DNA of 19,423 bases from Candidatus Poribacteria bacterium. Lineage in GTDB: Bacteria > Poribacteria > WGA-4E > WGA-3G. The notes below the pieces were generated by a model. That model had not been told where the DNA came from, made no database searches, and saw only the letters and a list, made by a program, of their open reading frames with translations. Position numbers and translations under genes: made by a program. This document shows, piece by piece, positions 3 to 14,302 of the stretch. The DNA lies in contig VXZL01000004.1 in assembly GCA_009845505.1 (NCBI GenBank), forward strand, positions 1 through 19,423, given 5' to 3'. Every line of letters begins with the position of its first letter. Position 1 is the stretch's first letter.

Positions 3-2231
3 GTTCAGGACTCTATGAATGAGGAGCGCATGCTCTGCATCTTTCGTCCGAAAAAGGACGATTTCAAAAATATTACCCTGAGCGATCTCAGTCCGGTTGG
101 GAGTTTGGTTCACATCCTCCGTTATAAAACGGATGATAACGATGTCCTGTTTCTCGCCCATGGACGCGAACGTGTTGAAATCGAAGAAATTTTGCACACC
201 GAGCCTTTCATCAAAGCCCGTGTCAATATTCTTAAAGGTGATGAAGAAGCGTCTGATGCGAGTGAAGGACAGGTCTTAGAAATTGAAGCACTCGTCCGTA
301 GCAACGATGAGACTTTCCAACGTATCGTTCAGATGTCATCGCGTTATCAAGAAGAATACGGCAGCATCACTAAAACAATGCTTGACGAACCCGGACGTTT
401 CGCCGACTACATCGCCGCCGTCTTGGACTTGAAGCCACACGACAAACAACGTATTTTAGAAGCTGTGTCTGTCTATGAGCGGTTAAGCGCACTCGCTGTT
501 ATTCTCGCGAAAGAACTTGATCTCCACGAACTGGAAAGCAAAATACAAAACAACGCACAAGCCGTTATTAACAAAGGACAGCGCGAATACTATCTCCGAG
601 AACAACTCAAGGCTATTCAAACCGAACTTGGTGAAGCGGACGATCTCAGTTTTGAAATCGATGAGATGCGGGAACAGCTACACGCAACTGAAATGCCGGA
701 CAAAGCGAAGCAGGCAGCTGAAAAAGAACTAAAACGACTCTCCAAAATGCAGTCTTTCTCACCGGAATCCACGGTTTCTCGAAATTACTTGGACTGGCTG
801 CTCAACCTTCCATGGTGTATCAGTACCGAAGATATGTTAGATTTGTCGGCTGCACAAAAGATTCTCGATGCGGATCACTACGATCTGGAAAAGGTTAAAG
901 AACGCATTCTTGAGTATCTTGCTGTACGTATGTTGAAGACAGAAATGAAGGGCCCAATTTTCTGTTTTGTCGGACCGCCGGGGGTGGGTAAAACCTCACT
1001 TGGTAGATCTATCGCGCGCGCGATGAACAGAAAATTCGTGCGGATCTCACTGGGGGGTATGCACGATGAAGCGGAAATCCGAGGGCACCGCCGCACCTAT
1101 ATCGGCTCTATGCCCGGTAGAATTGTCAAAGGACTCCGACAAGCCGAGTCTAACAATCCTGTCTTTATGCTTGATGAAATTGACAAACTCGGATCTGATT
1201 TTCGAGGGGACCCGGCGGCTGCACTTTTGGAAGTCCTGGATCCGGAGCAAAATCACTCGTTCACCGATAACTATCTTGATGTTCCTTTCGATTTGTCGAA
1301 GGTGATGTTCGTCACAACAGCGAATCAGCTCCATACGATTCCACCACCGTTGCGCGACCGGATGGAGACGATAGAACTCCCCGGTTACACCGCTAACGAG
1401 AAAGTGATTATCGCTAAGCAGTACCTGATTCCACGGCAATTGGACGCGAATGGACTAAAAAAGAAACTTATAAATATAAGAGATACGGCTATTAACAAGG
1501 TGGCGAGTGAGTACACCCGCGAGGCAGGTGTCCGGAATTTAGAGCGTGAACTCGGCACGCTCTGCCGGAAAGTTGCGCGCCGCGTCGCCGAAGGGAACAC
1601 AGAACGAACGAACATTGCAGCGAGAGACGTTCCGTCGTATTTGGGTCCAGCGAAGTTCGATTCTGAAATTGCGGGTCGTAAAGCCGACATCGGTGTCGCA
1701 ACAGGGCTGTCTGTCACACCCGCGGGTGGTGAAATTCTTTTTATTGAAGTTACCGCTACGAAAAAAACAAATGATCGTGCGGAGCTTCACATTACCGGTC
1801 AGATCGGTGATGTCATGCAGGAATCCGTGCAAGCTGCACTCAGTTATGTCAAATCCCAAGCCAATAAACTCAAATTTGATCCAAGTGTATTAGAAGACGA
1901 TATCCATGTCCATGTGCCTGCTGGCGCGATTCCGAAGGACGGGCCGTCGGCAGGTATTACGATTGCCACTGCTCTCGCCTCCGTTGCCACTCAGAAGCGG
2001 ATTAGTCCTAAAGTCGCTATGACAGGTGAGGTCACGCTCAGAGGTAGAGTCCTCCCGATTGGCGGCGTGAAGGAAAAAATCCTCGCAGCGAAGCAGGCGG
2101 GTATCAAAAAAGTTATCATGCCACAAGGCAATGAAAAACATTTTATTGAAGTGCCTGAGGACATCCAAGCAGGTGTTGAATTTCTATTTGTGGAGCATGT
2201 CACCGAAGTTTTTACGGAGGTATTCGCATGA
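3..2231 (+). CDS. lon: ATP-dependent serine protease Lon (5' end outside window)
   Basis: Lon degrades damaged and regulatory proteins in the cytoplasm as an ATP-driven hexamer. The reading frame is open to the left edge (V-Q-D-S before the first in-window Met at 15), and the N-terminal domain begins in mid-fold, so the true start lies upstream; 738 residues follow Met15, against roughly 780-810 usual for LonA. Counting from Met15: N-terminal substrate domain to about 200, helical region to about 290, Walker A GPPGVGKT at 320-327, Walker B FMLDEID, then the protease domain with catalytic Ser645 (DGPSAG) and Lys688 (GGVKEK). The 43-residue Ser-Lys spacing equals that of E. coli Lon. The stop TGA overlaps the next gene's ATG (ATGA). 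Function is certain from the intact ATPase and Ser-Lys dyad; only the start is unknown. Confidence 0.97.
2216..2220 (+). promoter_or_regulatory. Ribosome binding site inside the end of lon
   Basis: GGAGG lies 7 bases before the ATG at 2228 and inside the lon coding region. It fixes the start of the cytochrome/DUF1549 gene and supports coupled translation through the ATGA overlap. Confidence 0.75.
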
Positions 2232-4498
2232 AACGCCTATTGAGAATATCAGTTGGAAAACAGCACGCTCGCACCTTCTACTGTGCGCAATTTTTTACGT
2301 ATGCTGTTGTGTTGCTGTTTGTCTCTTCATTTGTGGCACAGGCGAACATGACAGGTGGTGGAAGTCTGAATCCTACAACTGTGCCGTACTTCCTCAAGGA
2401 CATCGCGCCTATCCTTGATAAACAAGGGTGTTCTGCCGGGATGTGCCACGGAAAGTTTGGCGGACAAGGCGGTTTGAATCTGTCTTTGTTGACCTTGAAT
2501 CCAGAATCGGACTATGAACCGATTGTACACCACAATCGCGGCAGACGTATCAATCTACTTGAACCGGATCGGAGTCTCTTTTTTCTTAAACCTACTGGGC
2601 AGGTCCCGCATGAAGGCGATATGCGATTTGAACCGAATTCGGATATCGCATTAACAATTCTGCGATGGATTGAAGCAGGCGCGCCCTTTTCGGATGACGA
2701 ACCCCGCTTGAGAAAACTGGAAATTGAACCGAGTACTGTTGTCTTATCCGATATTGGAGAGACCGCACGACTCAAGGTCCTCGCCTATTTTTCTGATGGT
2801 TCTGTTGAGGATGTGACCGAAAAAGCCGTTTATGAATCTAAGGACGCACCGGTTGCTGAAGTGTCCCCCACTGGTGAGGTGACAAGCGTCCGCTGGGGCG
2901 GAACGGCGATTATCGCTCGTTTTTTGGGTGTTGTTGATGCCTCGTTTGTGACAATCCCGCGGGCTTCTGAGATAGACGCGGCTTCGCAAGCAGCCCAATT
3001 CACGCCTAATAACTTCATTGATGAATTTGTCCTTGCGAAGCTCAAGAAGCTCAATATCCGTCCCTCCGCGCTAACGACTGATGAGGTCTTTGTTCGTAGG
3101 GTCTATCTTGACACAATCGGTAGATTGCCAAGGTCTGATGAGATAAAAGCGTTTCTCGCCGATACCCGTTCTGATAAACGCTCGAAACTTATTGATGCCC
3201 TTCTTGAAACGCCTGAATGGGTAGACCTGCGCACGTTAAAATTAGCGGATATGTTGCGGATCCATCCGCGTAGATTGGGAAATGGTGCGTTTGGTGAACG
3301 TGGAGCGACCCTCTTTCACGAATGGGTGCGCGGGGCTGTCGCACAAAACAGACCGTATGACGAAGTTGTGCGCGAACTCATCACTGCCCGTGGTAGTACG
3401 TATCAACACGGTCCTACAAACTACTACCGCATTGAGCGTCAACCCGCAGGTAGAGCAGAGACAACGGCGCAAGTATTTCTGGGTATCCGGTTGAGTTGTG
3501 CGAGATGTCATAAGCATCCCTTTGACCAATGGACGACTGATGACTATTGGAATTTCGCTGCCTTTACTGGAAAGGTCGGAATTCGCGGCGGTGAGCTTTA
3601 CAACGAGCAAGTTGTCTACTATAACCCCACAGGACGCGTTATAAATCAATCTGTTCAGGGCAATCGCGGTGAAGTTGCACAACCGACGTTTCTTGGTGGT
3701 GAATCACTTTCTTCAGATTATCAAGGGGATGTCCTGCAAGTCCTGGCAGATTGGATGACCTCCTCGACGAATCCGTACTTCGCCAAAGCAACCGTCAATC
3801 GTCTCTGGAGTCAATATTTTGGCAGAGGTATTGTTGATCCGGTTGACGATATGCGAGCGACAACGCCCGCAAGCGTTGAAGGACTTCTCGAAGCGTTGGC
3901 GGATGATTTTGTAAAAAGTGGATTTGATACGAAACACATTATCAAGCGAATTCTCAACTCGCGAACCTATCAACTCTCCGCGGCGCCAAATGAGACGAAT
4001 GAATTAGATGATCGGTTTTTCTCCCGTTTCTATCCACGTCCAATGGTCGCGCAGGTGTTATTGGATGTCTTAAATGATGTTACTGGAACCCAAGAAAAAT
4101 ATGGGCGTTATCCGCTTGGCACGCGTGCTGTGGCACTGCCGCTACCGGTGAGTTCACGTTTCTTGTCGCTTTACGATCGTTCTGATCGTGAGTTCCTTGG
4201 TGATTTGGATCCGAAACTTGAACCGACGCTTACCCAAGCACTCCACATGATTAACTCCAATTACGTCAATAAGAAATTGAGAAGTTCCAGTGGTGCGCTC
4301 ACGCGTCTGATAAAAGCGAAACCTGAGAACCGGGAACTCATTACTGAGTTATATCTCAGCACATTAAGCCGGTTTCCAACGGATACGGAGGTGGAGACTG
4401 CTGAGGCGTACATCACAGGAAGCCCGAAGTATCGCACAGGATGCGAAGATCTCCTATGGGCACTCATCTCGTCGCGGTCATTTCTCTTTATCCACTAA
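2228..4498 (+). CDS. Secreted planctomycete-type cytochrome with Ig-like, DUF1549 and DUF1553 domains
   Basis: Exported protein of 756 residues. A hydrophobic segment at about 20-38 acts as signal or anchor. A PSCyt1-like segment carries a heme motif CSAGMCH (68-74, a CX4CH form), then a Big2-like Ig domain at about 164-244, DUF1549 at about 262-450 with a second canonical heme motif CARCH (424-428, followed by KHPFDQW), and DUF1553 from about 510 to the end. The family is abundant in Planctomycetes, Verrucomicrobia and Poribacteria. Its biochemical role is unsettled; extracellular redox or polysaccharide-associated functions are suggested. The partner DUF1501 gene that often follows is absent. 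The start is set by GGAGG at 2216-2220, 7 bases before the ATG, inside the end of lon; the 4-base overlap implies translational coupling. Domain identity is firm; function is not. Confidence 0.9.
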   Translation: MKRLLRISVGKQHARTFYCAQFFTYAVVLLFVSSFVAQANMTGGGSLNPTTVPYFLKDIAPILDKQGCSAGMCHGKFGGQGGLNLSLLTLNPESDYEPIVHHNRGRRINLLEPDRSLFFLKPTGQVPHEGDMRFEPNSDIALTILRWIEAGAPFSDDEPRLRKLEIEPSTVVLSDIGETARLKVLAYFSDGSVEDVTEKAVYESKDAPVAEVSPTGEVTSVRWGGTAIIARFLGVVDASFVTIPRASEIDAASQAAQFTPNNFIDEFVLAKLKKLNIRPSALTTDEVFVRRVYLDTIGRLPRSDEIKAFLADTRSDKRSKLIDALLETPEWVDLRTLKLADMLRIHPRRLGNGAFGERGATLFHEWVRGAVAQNRPYDEVVRELITARGSTYQHGPTNYYRIERQPAGRAETTAQVFLGIRLSCARCHKHPFDQWTTDDYWNFAAFTGKVGIRGGELYNEQVVYYNPTGRVINQSVQGNRGEVAQPTFLGGESLSSDYQGDVLQVLADWMTSSTNPYFAKATVNRLWSQYFGRGIVDPVDDMRATTPASVEGLLEALADDFVKSGFDTKHIIKRILNSRTYQLSAAPNETNELDDRFFSRFYPRPMVAQVLLDVLNDVTGTQEKYGRYPLGTRAVALPLPVSSRFLSLYDRSDREFLGDLDPKLEPTLTQALHMINSNYVNKKLRSSSGALTRLIKAKPENRELITELYLSTLSRFPTDTEVETAEAYITGSPKYRTGCEDLLWALISSRSFLFIH

Positions 4499-5991: not shown

Positions 5992-6531
5992 TTACGATTC
6001 ACCGTTTTTTGTCAACCGTGTGACGATTTCTTCAACTGCACCCGCTGCGCGCTCCCGAATCTGATCGGGTGTGAGACTCTGGATCGGGTGTGGCACGGTG
6101 AGGGGTTCCAAGTCGCTATGCCCGAGCACACGCGCCTGTACTTTACCCGCAGCAAAAAAAACTTCTGTACAGACTGCGACACTGGGGACACCGCGTTCCT
6201 CTAAAGCACTTCCATCGTGCATACTGCACGATATGCAAGAGCCTCAGTCGGCAAGTCCTTCAATAACGAAGTCTGCCTGCTCCGCGAGTTCAGCGAGCAA
6301 TTCCGTCGGTGCCGGACGCGTGAATGTCGGTTTTTTGACCTGAATCACTTCGGCAAGGTCAAACCGTTCTTGCATTAATTCAGCAATGCGGTCGAGAAAA
6401 ATATCACTCCCATTTTTCGTGATGTTCAGGAGACCCATTACTTTTCCATCAAGGCTATCGAGCCGCGGTGAGAGAAATTTCGCTGGCGCATCACCTTGAG
6501 AGGTTGGATCGAGTAAAGTGGCGTTTGGCAT
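5992..6531 (-). CDS. UGSC-family selenoprotein, TGA at 6244-6246 read as selenocysteine
   Basis: The frame from ATG 6531 runs 95 codons to an in-frame TGA, continues without interruption, and stops at TAA 5992-5994. Together the halves give 179 residues with Sec96 in a U-G-S-C motif (Sec96, Cys99, and Cys102 nearby). This is the defining motif of the UGSC family of (seleno)proteins, in which other members carry Cys at the Sec place. Family-like features lie on both sides: ATLLDPT near the N-terminus, RPAPTELL before the motif, and SMHDGSALEERGVPSVAV after it. A UxxC motif suggests thiol redox chemistry, but the substrate is unknown. A bSECIS-like hairpin directly follows the TGA. GAGG at 6539-6542 precedes the start. 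It lies 60 bases after the TPR gene and probably shares its promoter. An ordinary nonsense mutation is the alternative, made unlikely by the exact position and intact downstream frame. Confidence 0.88.
6199..6246 (-). promoter_or_regulatory. Putative bacterial SECIS element with recoded UGA
   Basis: Read on the minus strand, the UGA (6246-6244) is followed after 11 bases by a perfect 8-bp stem AUCGUGCA/UGCACGAU (6214-6221 with 6225-6232) and a GUA loop starting 19 bases after the UGA. A lower stem, CUCU with AGAG (6238-6241 with 6199-6202) and GCA with UGC (6234-6236 with 6206-6208), can form below an internal loop. The distance and the G in the apical loop fit known bacterial SECIS elements recognised by SelB. 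The structure was worked out by eye, without folding energies. Confidence 0.72.
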
Positions 6532-6591: not shown

Positions 6592-6924
6592 TCATGTAGA
6601 TGAACCGGATGCTTCCATCTGCAGCTGCTGCGACTTTGCCATCGCATCTTCTGCTTCTTGAATCATCCCTTTTCGTTGGTAACACACGGATAAACTGGTA
6701 TATGCAAGCGGATCCTTCGGGTTAATTTCTATGGCTTTCTGGACAGCTTCAATGGCTTCATCGTATAAACTCAACCGTTCATAAGCGTGTCCCAGCCCAA
6801 GGTGTCCTTCGATGTAGTCTGGATACGTGTCAGTGAGTTCTTTGAAGGCGTTGACAGCCGCTTCAAGGTCGTTCTCCGCAAAGTGCGTGAGCGCAGCGTC
6901 GTAAAGTTCTGCTTCGGTTGGCAT
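6592..6924 (-). CDS. Small tetratricopeptide-repeat protein
   Basis: A 110-residue soluble protein made almost wholly of three TPR units: AALTHFAENDLEAAVNAFKELTDTYP, then EGHLGLGHAYERLSLYDEAIEAVQKAIEINP, then AYTSLSVCYQRKGMIQEAEDAMAKSQQL. TPRs form helical scaffolds for protein partners; no enzymatic part is present. A GGA site about 10 bases upstream and a strong promoter 34 bases further up place it first in a unit with the UGSC selenoprotein gene 60 bases downstream. It may be a partner of that protein, but this rests on gene order only. Confidence 0.85.
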   Translation of the reverse strand: MPTEAELYDAALTHFAENDLEAAVNAFKELTDTYPDYIEGHLGLGHAYERLSLYDEAIEAVQKAIEINPKDPLAYTSLSVCYQRKGMIQEAEDAMAKSQQLQMEASGSST

Positions 6925-9932: not shown

Positions 9933-10271
9933 TTATCTCCGCTTGTTCGATTTATCATATTCTGCGTGTGTTTCTACCTTCTCAATGATAACCCTTTGAA
10001 ACTCGTATTGTACAATGGCAGTAAGACGCGCTTTATTTCCACCAATGTTGAAAACTGTGTATTTTGTTTCTCGGTTGCTGTAAGGAACCCGTCTCCCAGA
10101 ATAAATTGAATGTTCCTTTCTAATATCCGCGTGTGGAAACGTTTGGCGCATCTCAACAATTGAACGGAAACTGCCTTGTGCCATCAACCGAAACCAGTGT
10201 TCGAGTCCTGATCTAGCATTCGGATGTCTCTGAGCAAATTCCGTTAGTTTTCGTCCGTAAACAATTTTCAT
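9933..10271 (-). CDS. higB: HigB-type toxin (RelE-superfamily mRNA interferase)
   Basis: A 112-residue basic protein of the HigB family: ribosome-associated mRNA endonuclease toxins. Landmarks are the helix RHPNARSGLEHWF, the strand YTVFNIGGNKARL (FNI.GN.RL is the family core) and the C-terminal THAEYDK ending, typically ...I.THaeYD. Between residues 49 and 70 it carries a longer basic loop (IRKEHSIYSGRRVPYSNRE) than compact homologues. The start is secure at 10271 because a TAG lies in frame two codons upstream (10275-10277); no good ribosome site is seen, fitting weak translation. Toxin first, partner second is the usual higBA order. The toxin looks intact and so should need a functional antitoxin. 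Confidence 0.85.
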   Translation of the reverse strand: MKIVYGRKLTEFAQRHPNARSGLEHWFRLMAQGSFRSIVEMRQTFPHADIRKEHSIYSGRRVPYSNRETKYTVFNIGGNKARLTAIVQYEFQRVIIEKVETHAEYDKSNKRR

Positions 10272-12642: not shown

Positions 12643-13512
12643 ATGAACGAAAAAGAGATTCTTAAAAAAATCCAGCACATCGAAATATTTACCAATCGCC
12701 TCGTCAACACCGTCTTCGCGGGGGAGTATGAGAGTGTCTTCAAAGGACAAGGGATTACCTTCGACGAGGTCCGTGAATATCAAGTGGGAGACGAGATTCG
12801 TGCGATTGATTGGAATGTAACCGCACGCATGGGGCAGGCTTACATCAAACAGTATGTAGAGGAACGTGAACTCGTCATGATGTTGGTTGTGGATATGAGT
12901 GCCTCGACGGGTTTCGGGAGTATCGCTGAGACGAAAGCGGAAATTGCTGCTGAAATTGCGGCACTCCTTGCTTTTTCCGCTATCAAGAATAACGATAAAG
13001 TTGGACTCATCTGTTTCACGGATACCGTTGAACACTTCGTTGCGCCGCGGCAGGGGAGAAGACACGTCTTACGCGTCGTTCGGGATATACTTCGTTTTCA
13101 GCCGAAGCAACCGCGTACAAGTATTGAAACGGCGTTGGCGTTCGTCGATCGCGTGCTCAAGCCCCACAGCGTTGTGTTTCTCATTTCTGATTTTAAGGAT
13201 ACAGGATATGAAAAGCAGTTGCGTTTGAGCAGTAAACGGCATTCACTTATTGCGATTGCCTTACAGGACAGACGCGAGGTGGAATTGCCAAACATTGGAC
13301 TCATAGAACTGGCGGATGCTGAGACCGGAGAGACGGTCGTTATTGATACGCGTTCCGAGACAGCGCGACAGTCGTATCAAGAGCTTAATCAACGTGCCGA
13401 TGCTGAACGTAGACAGATTTTCCGAGCAAGCCAAATTGATTCTATTCACATCAGAACAGATGAATCCTATGTAAAGCCGCTTATCCGATTTTTCCGCCAA
13501 CGTGCTGCTTGA
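12643..13512 (+). CDS. DUF58-family protein with VWA-like MIDAS motif
   Basis: A 289-residue soluble protein. The signature G-x-G-I-T-F-D-E-V-R-E-Y-x-x-G-D-x-x-R-x-I-D-W-N occupies about 35-58, followed by ARMG. A von Willebrand A-like segment carries DMSAS (Asp84, Ser86, Ser88), the metal-dependent adhesion motif. DUF58 proteins usually sit beside a MoxR ATPase and membrane VWA proteins in complex-assembly operons; none of those partners is here. The short form without membrane segments is common. No Shine-Dalgarno sequence precedes the ATG; the leader instead has a direct repeat of GACAACT. The ABC ATPase follows 19 bases downstream. Family certain, role unknown. Confidence 0.88.
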   Translation: MNEKEILKKIQHIEIFTNRLVNTVFAGEYESVFKGQGITFDEVREYQVGDEIRAIDWNVTARMGQAYIKQYVEERELVMMLVVDMSASTGFGSIAETKAEIAAEIAALLAFSAIKNNDKVGLICFTDTVEHFVAPRQGRRHVLRVVRDILRFQPKQPRTSIETALAFVDRVLKPHSVVFLISDFKDTGYEKQLRLSSKRHSLIAIALQDRREVELPNIGLIELADAETGETVVIDTRSETARQSYQELNQRADAERRQIFRASQIDSIHIRTDESYVKPLIRFFRQRAA

Positions 13513-13531
13513 GGCTAAGGCATGTAAGGTT

Positions 13532-14302
13532 ATGAGTAAATTAGAGGTCCGGAATTTAACACAAAGCTTTGTTCAAAAAGATACCCGATTACAGGTATTG
13601 GATACCTTGAATTTCTCTGTTGATGAAGGGCAGTTTGTCGCTTTATTGGGTCCCTCGGGTTGTGGGAAAAGCACGCTTTTTAATATTATTTCTGGGCTAC
13701 TTGTGCCGGACACTGGAGAAATTTACCTCAACGGCAAACGCATCTATGGCAATACCGGTGATTTTGCTTATATGCAACAAAAGGATCTTCTCTTACCGTG
13801 GCGAACTGTCCTGAGAAATGTCCTCATTGGTCCAGAGATTCACAACGAACTGCTTGACACCGCGAGGGAGGAAGCACAAAAGCGTTTGGCGCAACTCGGA
13901 TTAAGCGGGTTTGAAAACAGTTATCCAATGCAGCTATCGGGTGGAATGCGGCAACGCGTCGCGCTCGTCCGGACGCTCCTTTTTCGGAAAAAGGTGCTGC
14001 TTTTAGATGAACCGTTCGGTGCGTTGGATGCAATGACACGGACTGTCATGCAATCCATCCTACTCGACATTTGGGCAGAAGACAGGCAGACCGTTTTGCT
14101 CATTACCCATGATATTGAGGAAGCACTGTTGCTTGCAGATAAAATTTACGTGCTAACTGCCCGACCCGCGACGCTCAAGGCAGAGGTGCCTGTCTCTCTA
14201 TCGCGTCCAAGAGACATCACTGATACTGCTCTCATTCGCTTGAAAAGAGAACTTTTGTCTCTCCTACAGATCGAAATATCAGCCGTTTTCGATGCAGGCT
14301 AA
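13532..14302 (+). CDS. ABC transporter ATP-binding protein, NitT/TauT (SsuB-like) type
   Basis: A 256-residue ATPase subunit from ATG 13532. Walker A GPSGCGKST is at 40-48, Q-loop at 82-83, LPW typical of the nitrate/sulfonate/taurine group at 88-90, signature LSGGM at 135-139, Walker B VLLLDEPFGALD from 155 and the H-loop THD (His193). It should energise import of a small anion such as a sulfonate, nitrate or thiamine precursor. Permease and binding-protein genes are absent on both sides; they must be encoded elsewhere or upstream loci serve it. A GTG at 13502 extends the frame into the DUF58 gene; I prefer the ATG because MSKLEVRNLTQSF matches the usual family N-terminus and CTAAGG lies 11 bases upstream. 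Confidence 0.9.
   Translation: MSKLEVRNLTQSFVQKDTRLQVLDTLNFSVDEGQFVALLGPSGCGKSTLFNIISGLLVPDTGEIYLNGKRIYGNTGDFAYMQQKDLLLPWRTVLRNVLIGPEIHNELLDTAREEAQKRLAQLGLSGFENSYPMQLSGGMRQRVALVRTLLFRKKVLLLDEPFGALDAMTRTVMQSILLDIWAEDRQTVLLITHDIEEALLLADKIYVLTARPATLKAEVPVSLSRPRDITDTALIRLKRELLSLLQIEISAVFDAG

Follow-up and report, generated by a model that had tools for sequence, protein, structure and literature searches.

The window, meaning the whole stretch of 19,423 nucleotides of Candidatus Poribacteria DNA that was analysed, contains on its minus strand a UGSC-family selenoprotein gene at 5992..6531. The gene would encode 179 residues with selenocysteine (Sec) at residue 96, as judged from its family scores and a frame that is kept in relatives. 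The UGA read as selenocysteine lies at 6244..6246 on the minus strand, with coding-type conservation on both sides. A SECIS hairpin follows at 6214..6232 on the same strand. Upstream, at 6592..6924 (minus strand), is a gene for a TPR protein of 110 residues, recognised by its TPR family matches. Elsewhere in the window, a plus-strand Lon protease gene (15-2231) has a four-base overlap with a plus-strand gene with PSCyt2/PSD1 domains (2228-4498), and the clusters of these two genes were each present in 25 of 47 loci. The minus-strand gene at 9933-10271 carries a HigB-type toxin domain (PF09907, 73.8 bits) and is probably half of a toxin-antitoxin pair.

Reading frame, family and recoding of UGA 96

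The original prediction joined two adjacent minus-strand frames, separated by the TGA at 6244-6246, into one 179-residue protein that plain ORF calling would miss. Both points were confirmed. The two halves form one frame with a single internal TGA (codon 96) and a terminal TAA, and the ORF caller reports just 6244-6531, 95 aa, which is the first 95 residues of the UGSC gene. The joined protein was searched against family models and exceeded both curated cut-offs over nearly the whole model, with 172.5 bits for PF24696 'UGSC' (cut-off 25) and 158.5 bits for NF041046 'UGSC family (seleno)protein' (cut-off 125). The UGSC motif occupies residues 96-99, so that the TGA stands at its first position as had been proposed, and the extended site reads U-G-S-C-I-S-C. 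Homologues in other lineages have Cys, as the prediction called for, or Sec (TGA) in the residue 96 column. The gene is a new member of a known family. It shares with that family the full-length match, the motif and the Sec/Cys column, and it differs in nothing essential, the window protein being the Poribacteria member with U-G-S-C-I-S-C.

The scan of named genomes, whose reach was limited to close relatives, gave 46 loci, all from Poribacteria and 65-97% identical. TGA was present at the UGSC codon in the same frame in 46/46 of these loci (47/47 counting the window). In a set of 97 related genomes, the UGSC family was present in 62, and one in-frame TGA was found in 61 of the 63 match rows, the remaining two being rows that do not span the Sec site. 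The 46-locus set and the 97-genome set overlap, and many of their contigs are identical. When all pairs of the 47 Poribacteria sequences were added up, codon differences in codons 97-175 were synonymous in 33,947 cases and nonsynonymous in 11,425. TGA is also an ordinary stop in other genes, as was claimed: the upstream TPR gene ends in TGA, and in 8 of 46 relatives TGA is the normal terminator of the UGSC gene itself. The claim of site-specific recoding of a UGSC-family selenoprotein in a Poribacteria host holds.

The SECIS hairpin and the selenocysteine machinery

The hairpin AUCGUGCA-GUA-UGCACGAU lies at 6232-6214 and begins 11 bases past the UGA. The 51-nt stretch from the UGA folded at -20.2 kcal/mol (z -4.28), and 0 of 200 shuffles were as good. 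According to the constraints quoted in PMC13188914, a bacterial SECIS has a loop of 3-9 nt, a stem of 4-16 bp, an energy of -7.5 or lower, a G in the first two loop positions and 16-37 nt from UGA to loop. The hairpin here falls within these limits (loop 3-5, stem 7-8, 18-19 nt, -20.2 kcal/mol), and folding bears out the bacterial SECIS geometry that had been proposed. The description of a perfect 8-bp stem with a GUA loop was right as to position, but the outermost A-U pair is not conserved, being broken by codon 106, which is GAC in 11 of 47 sequences. The conserved stem has 7 bp plus this one variable pair.

Codons 101-105 (TCG TGC AGT ATG CAC), the block that forms the hairpin, were invariant in 47/47 sequences, and four of these five codons are degenerate. 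Over most of the gene, silent sites are free to vary in the same 47 Poribacteria sequences: mean codon entropy, taken over well-conserved degenerate residues only, was 1.20 bits (codons 1-95) and 1.28 bits (codons 112-179). Each of the 47 UGSC codons was followed by a SECIS-like hairpin whose stem had 7 bp or more. Among the 19,849 TGA triplets in the same sequences, 237 were followed by a hairpin with such a stem and the right loop and spacing; this background of 1.2% includes the 47 UGSC sites. Because such hairpins follow 1.2% of TGA triplets, a single hairpin is weak evidence, and the proof lies in its conservation.

In the genome of the window, contig C335 carries selB (351 bits) next to the gene for tRNA-Sec (78 bits), and selA (589 bits) lies on contig C15. 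Of the four genes that were expected in the host (selA, selB, selC and selD), the first three are present; selD was not found in this assembly of 691 contigs and 86.5% completeness (best 24.6 bits, cut-off 125). In 34 of 36 genomes of the same genus selD was over the cut-off, with a single in-frame TGA in every case, so its absence here is most likely due to the incomplete assembly. The missing selD is what speaks for the alternative of a TGA that comes from a sequencing error or a decayed stop, with the downstream half untranslated. The TGA in all 47 sequences, the synonymous excess downstream of it and the silent sites frozen at the hairpin oppose this alternative, which we consider extremely improbable. 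Judged from the sequence evidence, the gene at 5992-6531 is almost certainly a genuine UGSC-family selenoprotein gene that ordinary gene calling splits in two.

Other selenoproteins were observed in these genomes. Of 60 genomes with selD over the cut-off, 59 had one in-frame TGA in the gene, which makes SelD itself a selenoprotein in them; the remaining genome lies outside the phylum. A second selenoprotein is encoded by Poribacteria PrdB-like (PF07355) genes with TGA in a UPxC motif, in 30 of the 30 relatives fetched. The genome of the window also has such a gene (contig C422, match 5997-6359).

The TPR neighbour and an unannotated partner protein

It had been suggested that the TPR gene could be the partner of the UGSC gene. 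Among the 44 loci whose upstream sequence was long enough (L037, L048 and L060 were left out as too short), 41 had the TPR gene adjoining UGSC, upstream and on the same strand; L030, L065 and L067 gave none by ORF clustering. It was present in 67 of 97 genomes (E 1e-30), and over all 97 its association with UGSC reached p 4e-12, kinship ignored. This association arises because the TPR gene is confined to one order. Within that order the two genes were unassociated (58 genomes with both, 3 with UGSC only, 9 with TPR only, 1 with neither; p 0.46), and in several families the TPR gene is on another contig or distant from UGSC. Despite the steady adjacency and the association across the 97 genomes, the TPR protein was rejected as a partner, given the nine genomes that keep it without UGSC and the lack of association within the order. 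A functional partnership of the two is very unlikely. Shared synteny is the simplest reading of their adjacency, and the TPR gene is probably a neighbour, not a partner.

In place of the TPR protein, a different and steady partner is new in this study. Plasmid records show UGSC next to a 'hypothetical protein' that is 330-358 residues long, and partner proteins overall have about 310-360 residues. Five plasmid-borne partner proteins have 67 invariant columns in common; these five gave no Pfam or NCBIfam match over the cut-off, and one weak Pfam match (E 0.023). The partner profile found a homologue in 61 of 97 genomes. In the genome of the window, the partner gene lies on contig C52 at 12826-13767 and encodes 313 residues (partner profile E 2.6e-108). 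Presence of UGSC and of the partner agreed in 94 of 97 genomes (60 with both, 34 with neither); the discordant genomes were G020 and G047, with UGSC without partner, and G034, with partner without UGSC. The agreement was also seen within the order (59 both, 9 neither, 2 UGSC only, 1 partner only; p 7e-9) and within a genus in which absences recur (11 genomes with both, 6 with neither, 1 with UGSC only; p 0.0004), kinship being ignored in all three comparisons. In Poribacteria of the window's order, the two genes are mostly unlinked.

Plasmids were searched with a UGSC query (L107, E 1e-5) and with the partner from the window's genome (E 1e-10). Every record that matched UGSC (16/16) also matched the partner, the two matched stretches being 4-441 nt apart, and 8 of the 24 records with a partner match gave no UGSC match. 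The two proteins occur as a single fused protein in G074, where it is the Sec form with the motif U-S-T-C, and in Variovorax boronicumulans, where it is the Cys form. A 2008 ocean survey describes UGSC fused to a domain called 'Unknown_1' (PMC2398784), which by that description resembles the partner in being a domain fused to UGSC. The association itself is read from gene presence, linkage and fusion, and we consider a functional pairing of UGSC with this unannotated partner highly probable. The structure model of the partner had fair confidence (pLDDT 76.5), and a fold search with it gave no match at E 0.001.

The plasmids offered several further observations. Sec-form UGSC genes with TGA at the motif are borne by a conjugative IncP plasmid of Acidovorax (L104) and by two Paracoccus plasmids (L170 and L173). 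In the annotation, the Acidovorax gene appears only as a piece of 96 residues and that of L173 as two pieces; L173 also has selB, some 4 kb from UGSC. On an Arthrobacter plasmid (L105:5992-6807), UGSC has a C-terminal NifU-like domain at 27.2 bits, barely over the cut-off of 27. The haloarchaeal plasmids L106, L165, L171 and L172 each have two places that match the partner. In L106, the two copies lie on either side of UGSC and align with the partner family. A paired-subunit arrangement is possible.

Fold, redox site and proposed function

The UGSC model, built from an alignment of 90 members, had a pLDDT of 91.9 and five alternating strand-helix units, with Sec 96 placed between the third strand (88-94) and the third helix (97-112). 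In a thioredoxin fold, strands and helices follow a set order in which two neighbouring strands precede the last helix, and this order is absent from the predicted model. Fold searches with the model returned generic alpha/beta relatives. The predicted fold resembles that of Rossmann or flavodoxin domains and disagrees with the published thioredoxin-like suggestion. PMC2398784 and PMC13188914 place UGSC among thioredoxin-fold selenoproteins, and this grouping and the UxxC motif favour the explanation that UGSC is such a protein and that the partner is merely a clustered gene. The five alternating units predicted here, the lack of any thioredoxin family among the 14 Pfam families matched by the 90 members, the two UGSC-partner fusions and the 94/97 agreement in genomes where the genes are mostly unlinked all count against that explanation, and we regard it as unlikely.

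Each of the 90 family members was scanned on its own against NCBIfam. Nine of them are fragments of 98-126 residues, and the three fragments that were inspected end right before the Sec site. At E up to 1, the models that ranked next after UGSC were GrdB (76/90), GrdF (68), GrdH (58) and general selenoprotein B (52), which are related models and not four independent tests. The best unrelated family matched 13 of 90. The UGSC profile scored 29.4 bits against GrdB of Acetoanaerobium (E 4.9e-6 at 177,635 sequences), with Sec on Sec, and 14.3 and 9.5 bits against a GrdH-type protein and PrdB of the same organism. When UGSC was aligned with these three proteins by hhalign, the probability was 85.9, with UGTCTRC on UGSCISC and PHP on PHP. 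The score against GrdB was 22.9 bits after the Sec was masked and 6.6 bits after seven motif residues were masked, less than the best shuffle (8.4). A profile of Poribacteria UGSC proteins only gave 16.8 bits (E 0.04).

The UGSC protein was excluded as a GrdB itself, since it had no full-length match and scored 15.9 bits against the TIGR01917 cut-off of 602.2, over model positions 333-405 of 431 only. What it has in common with GrdB (TIGR01917, PF07355) is the UxxCxxC site, represented by UGSCISC, the next helix, the strand, the PHP motif and, by some copies, thioredoxin-system genes. It differs in its length (179 residues against about 430) and in its partner protein. PrdB was rejected as the closest relative. 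The 30 Poribacteria PrdB-like proteins alone gave an hhalign probability of 0.1, and pooling them with the three Acetoanaerobium proteins lowered it from 85.9 to 23.9; the likeness is therefore claimed for GrdB only. PrdB and the Poribacteria PrdB-like proteins share a Sec in a UxxC motif with UGSC, but the motif is UPMC or UGTCHRS and the Poribacteria set has no profile similarity.

The link between UGSC and GrdB is suggestive and based on the active site, and convergence is possible. The likeness may reflect convergence on a UG[ST]CxxC redox site, in which case the pair, whether a reductase or some other redox enzyme, would be unrelated in both ancestry and chemistry. Such a reading gains from the score that resides in the motif and from the missing profile similarity to PrdB-like proteins; it loses from the rank of the four related glycine-reductase-type models directly after UGSC and from an alignment that extends over the helix, the following strand and the PHP motif. 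We consider convergence a serious contender, somewhat short of an even chance. Glycine-reductase-like chemistry of the pair is put only slightly below even. No function for UGSC and no link between UGSC and glycine reductase was found in the passages of open-access papers that were consulted.

Annotation was available for 13 of the 15 plasmid stretches viewed, out of 16. A trxB or TrxR-like gene was near the UGSC-partner pair in 5 of the 13. These are Arthrobacter (trxB and trxA), Variovorax SRS16 and Roseovarius, together with Haloterrigena and V. boronicumulans, whose TrxR-like genes are under the TIGR01292 cut-off. The other eight annotated stretches had no thioredoxin-system gene. Among Poribacteria, G061 has a thioredoxin-like gene (CPTC), the partner and UGSC in that order, and G063 has a partner protein that is fused to a thioredoxin-like domain; in each of the two genomes the thioredoxin match is under the curated cut-offs. 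Near the partner gene of the window's genome, whose neighbours were viewed without a profile scan, no thioredoxin-system gene was noticed. We believe that the pair is fed by thioredoxin, with moderate confidence.

We propose that UGA 96 is decoded as selenocysteine through the downstream hairpin by SelA, SelB and tRNA-Sec of the host. The working unit would most likely be a two-component enzyme composed of the UGSC protein and its partner, the latter encoded elsewhere (contig C52). In this enzyme, Sec 96 would carry out the reductive cleavage of a bond in a small substrate that is bound by the partner or jointly with it. Thioredoxin and thioredoxin reductase would then restore Sec 96 by way of the cysteines close to it, as in GrdB. 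We infer the physical complex, the reductive chemistry and the electron route from the comparisons above. To this proposal as a whole, a selenoprotein and partner forming a thioredoxin-fed two-component enzyme with GrdB-like reduction, we assign a probability of roughly 55%. TRAP and tripartite tricarboxylate transporters, CoA transferases and PEP-mutase-like lyases recur near the plasmid copies of the pair and suggest the breakdown of an imported acid. On a more tentative level, and with less than an even chance, the pair may represent a new mobile two-component reductase that has its selenium site in common with glycine reductase. It would draw on thioredoxin, act on an imported compound of the carboxylate type, and operate in haloarchaea and other bacteria as well as in sponge symbionts.

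The UGSC family has been known since at least 2008. In the Global Ocean Sampling data its members ranked with the most abundant selenoproteins, at 255 Sec and 21 Cys forms (Table 2 of PMC2398784). A 2026 review counts the family among selenoproteins whose functions are largely uncharacterized (PMC13188914). The proposal, if true, would assign a function to a selenoprotein family that is one of the most abundant in aquatic metagenomes. The steady partner, the thioredoxin link and the GrdB-like Sec site make this orphan family testable. SelA and SelB are enriched in sponge symbionts of several phyla, and most close relatives are without them, as reported in PMC5649159. The UGSC finding may bear on the retention of SelA and SelB in these symbionts, and UGSC, SelD and the PrdB-like protein are candidate reasons for the enrichment in Poribacteria.
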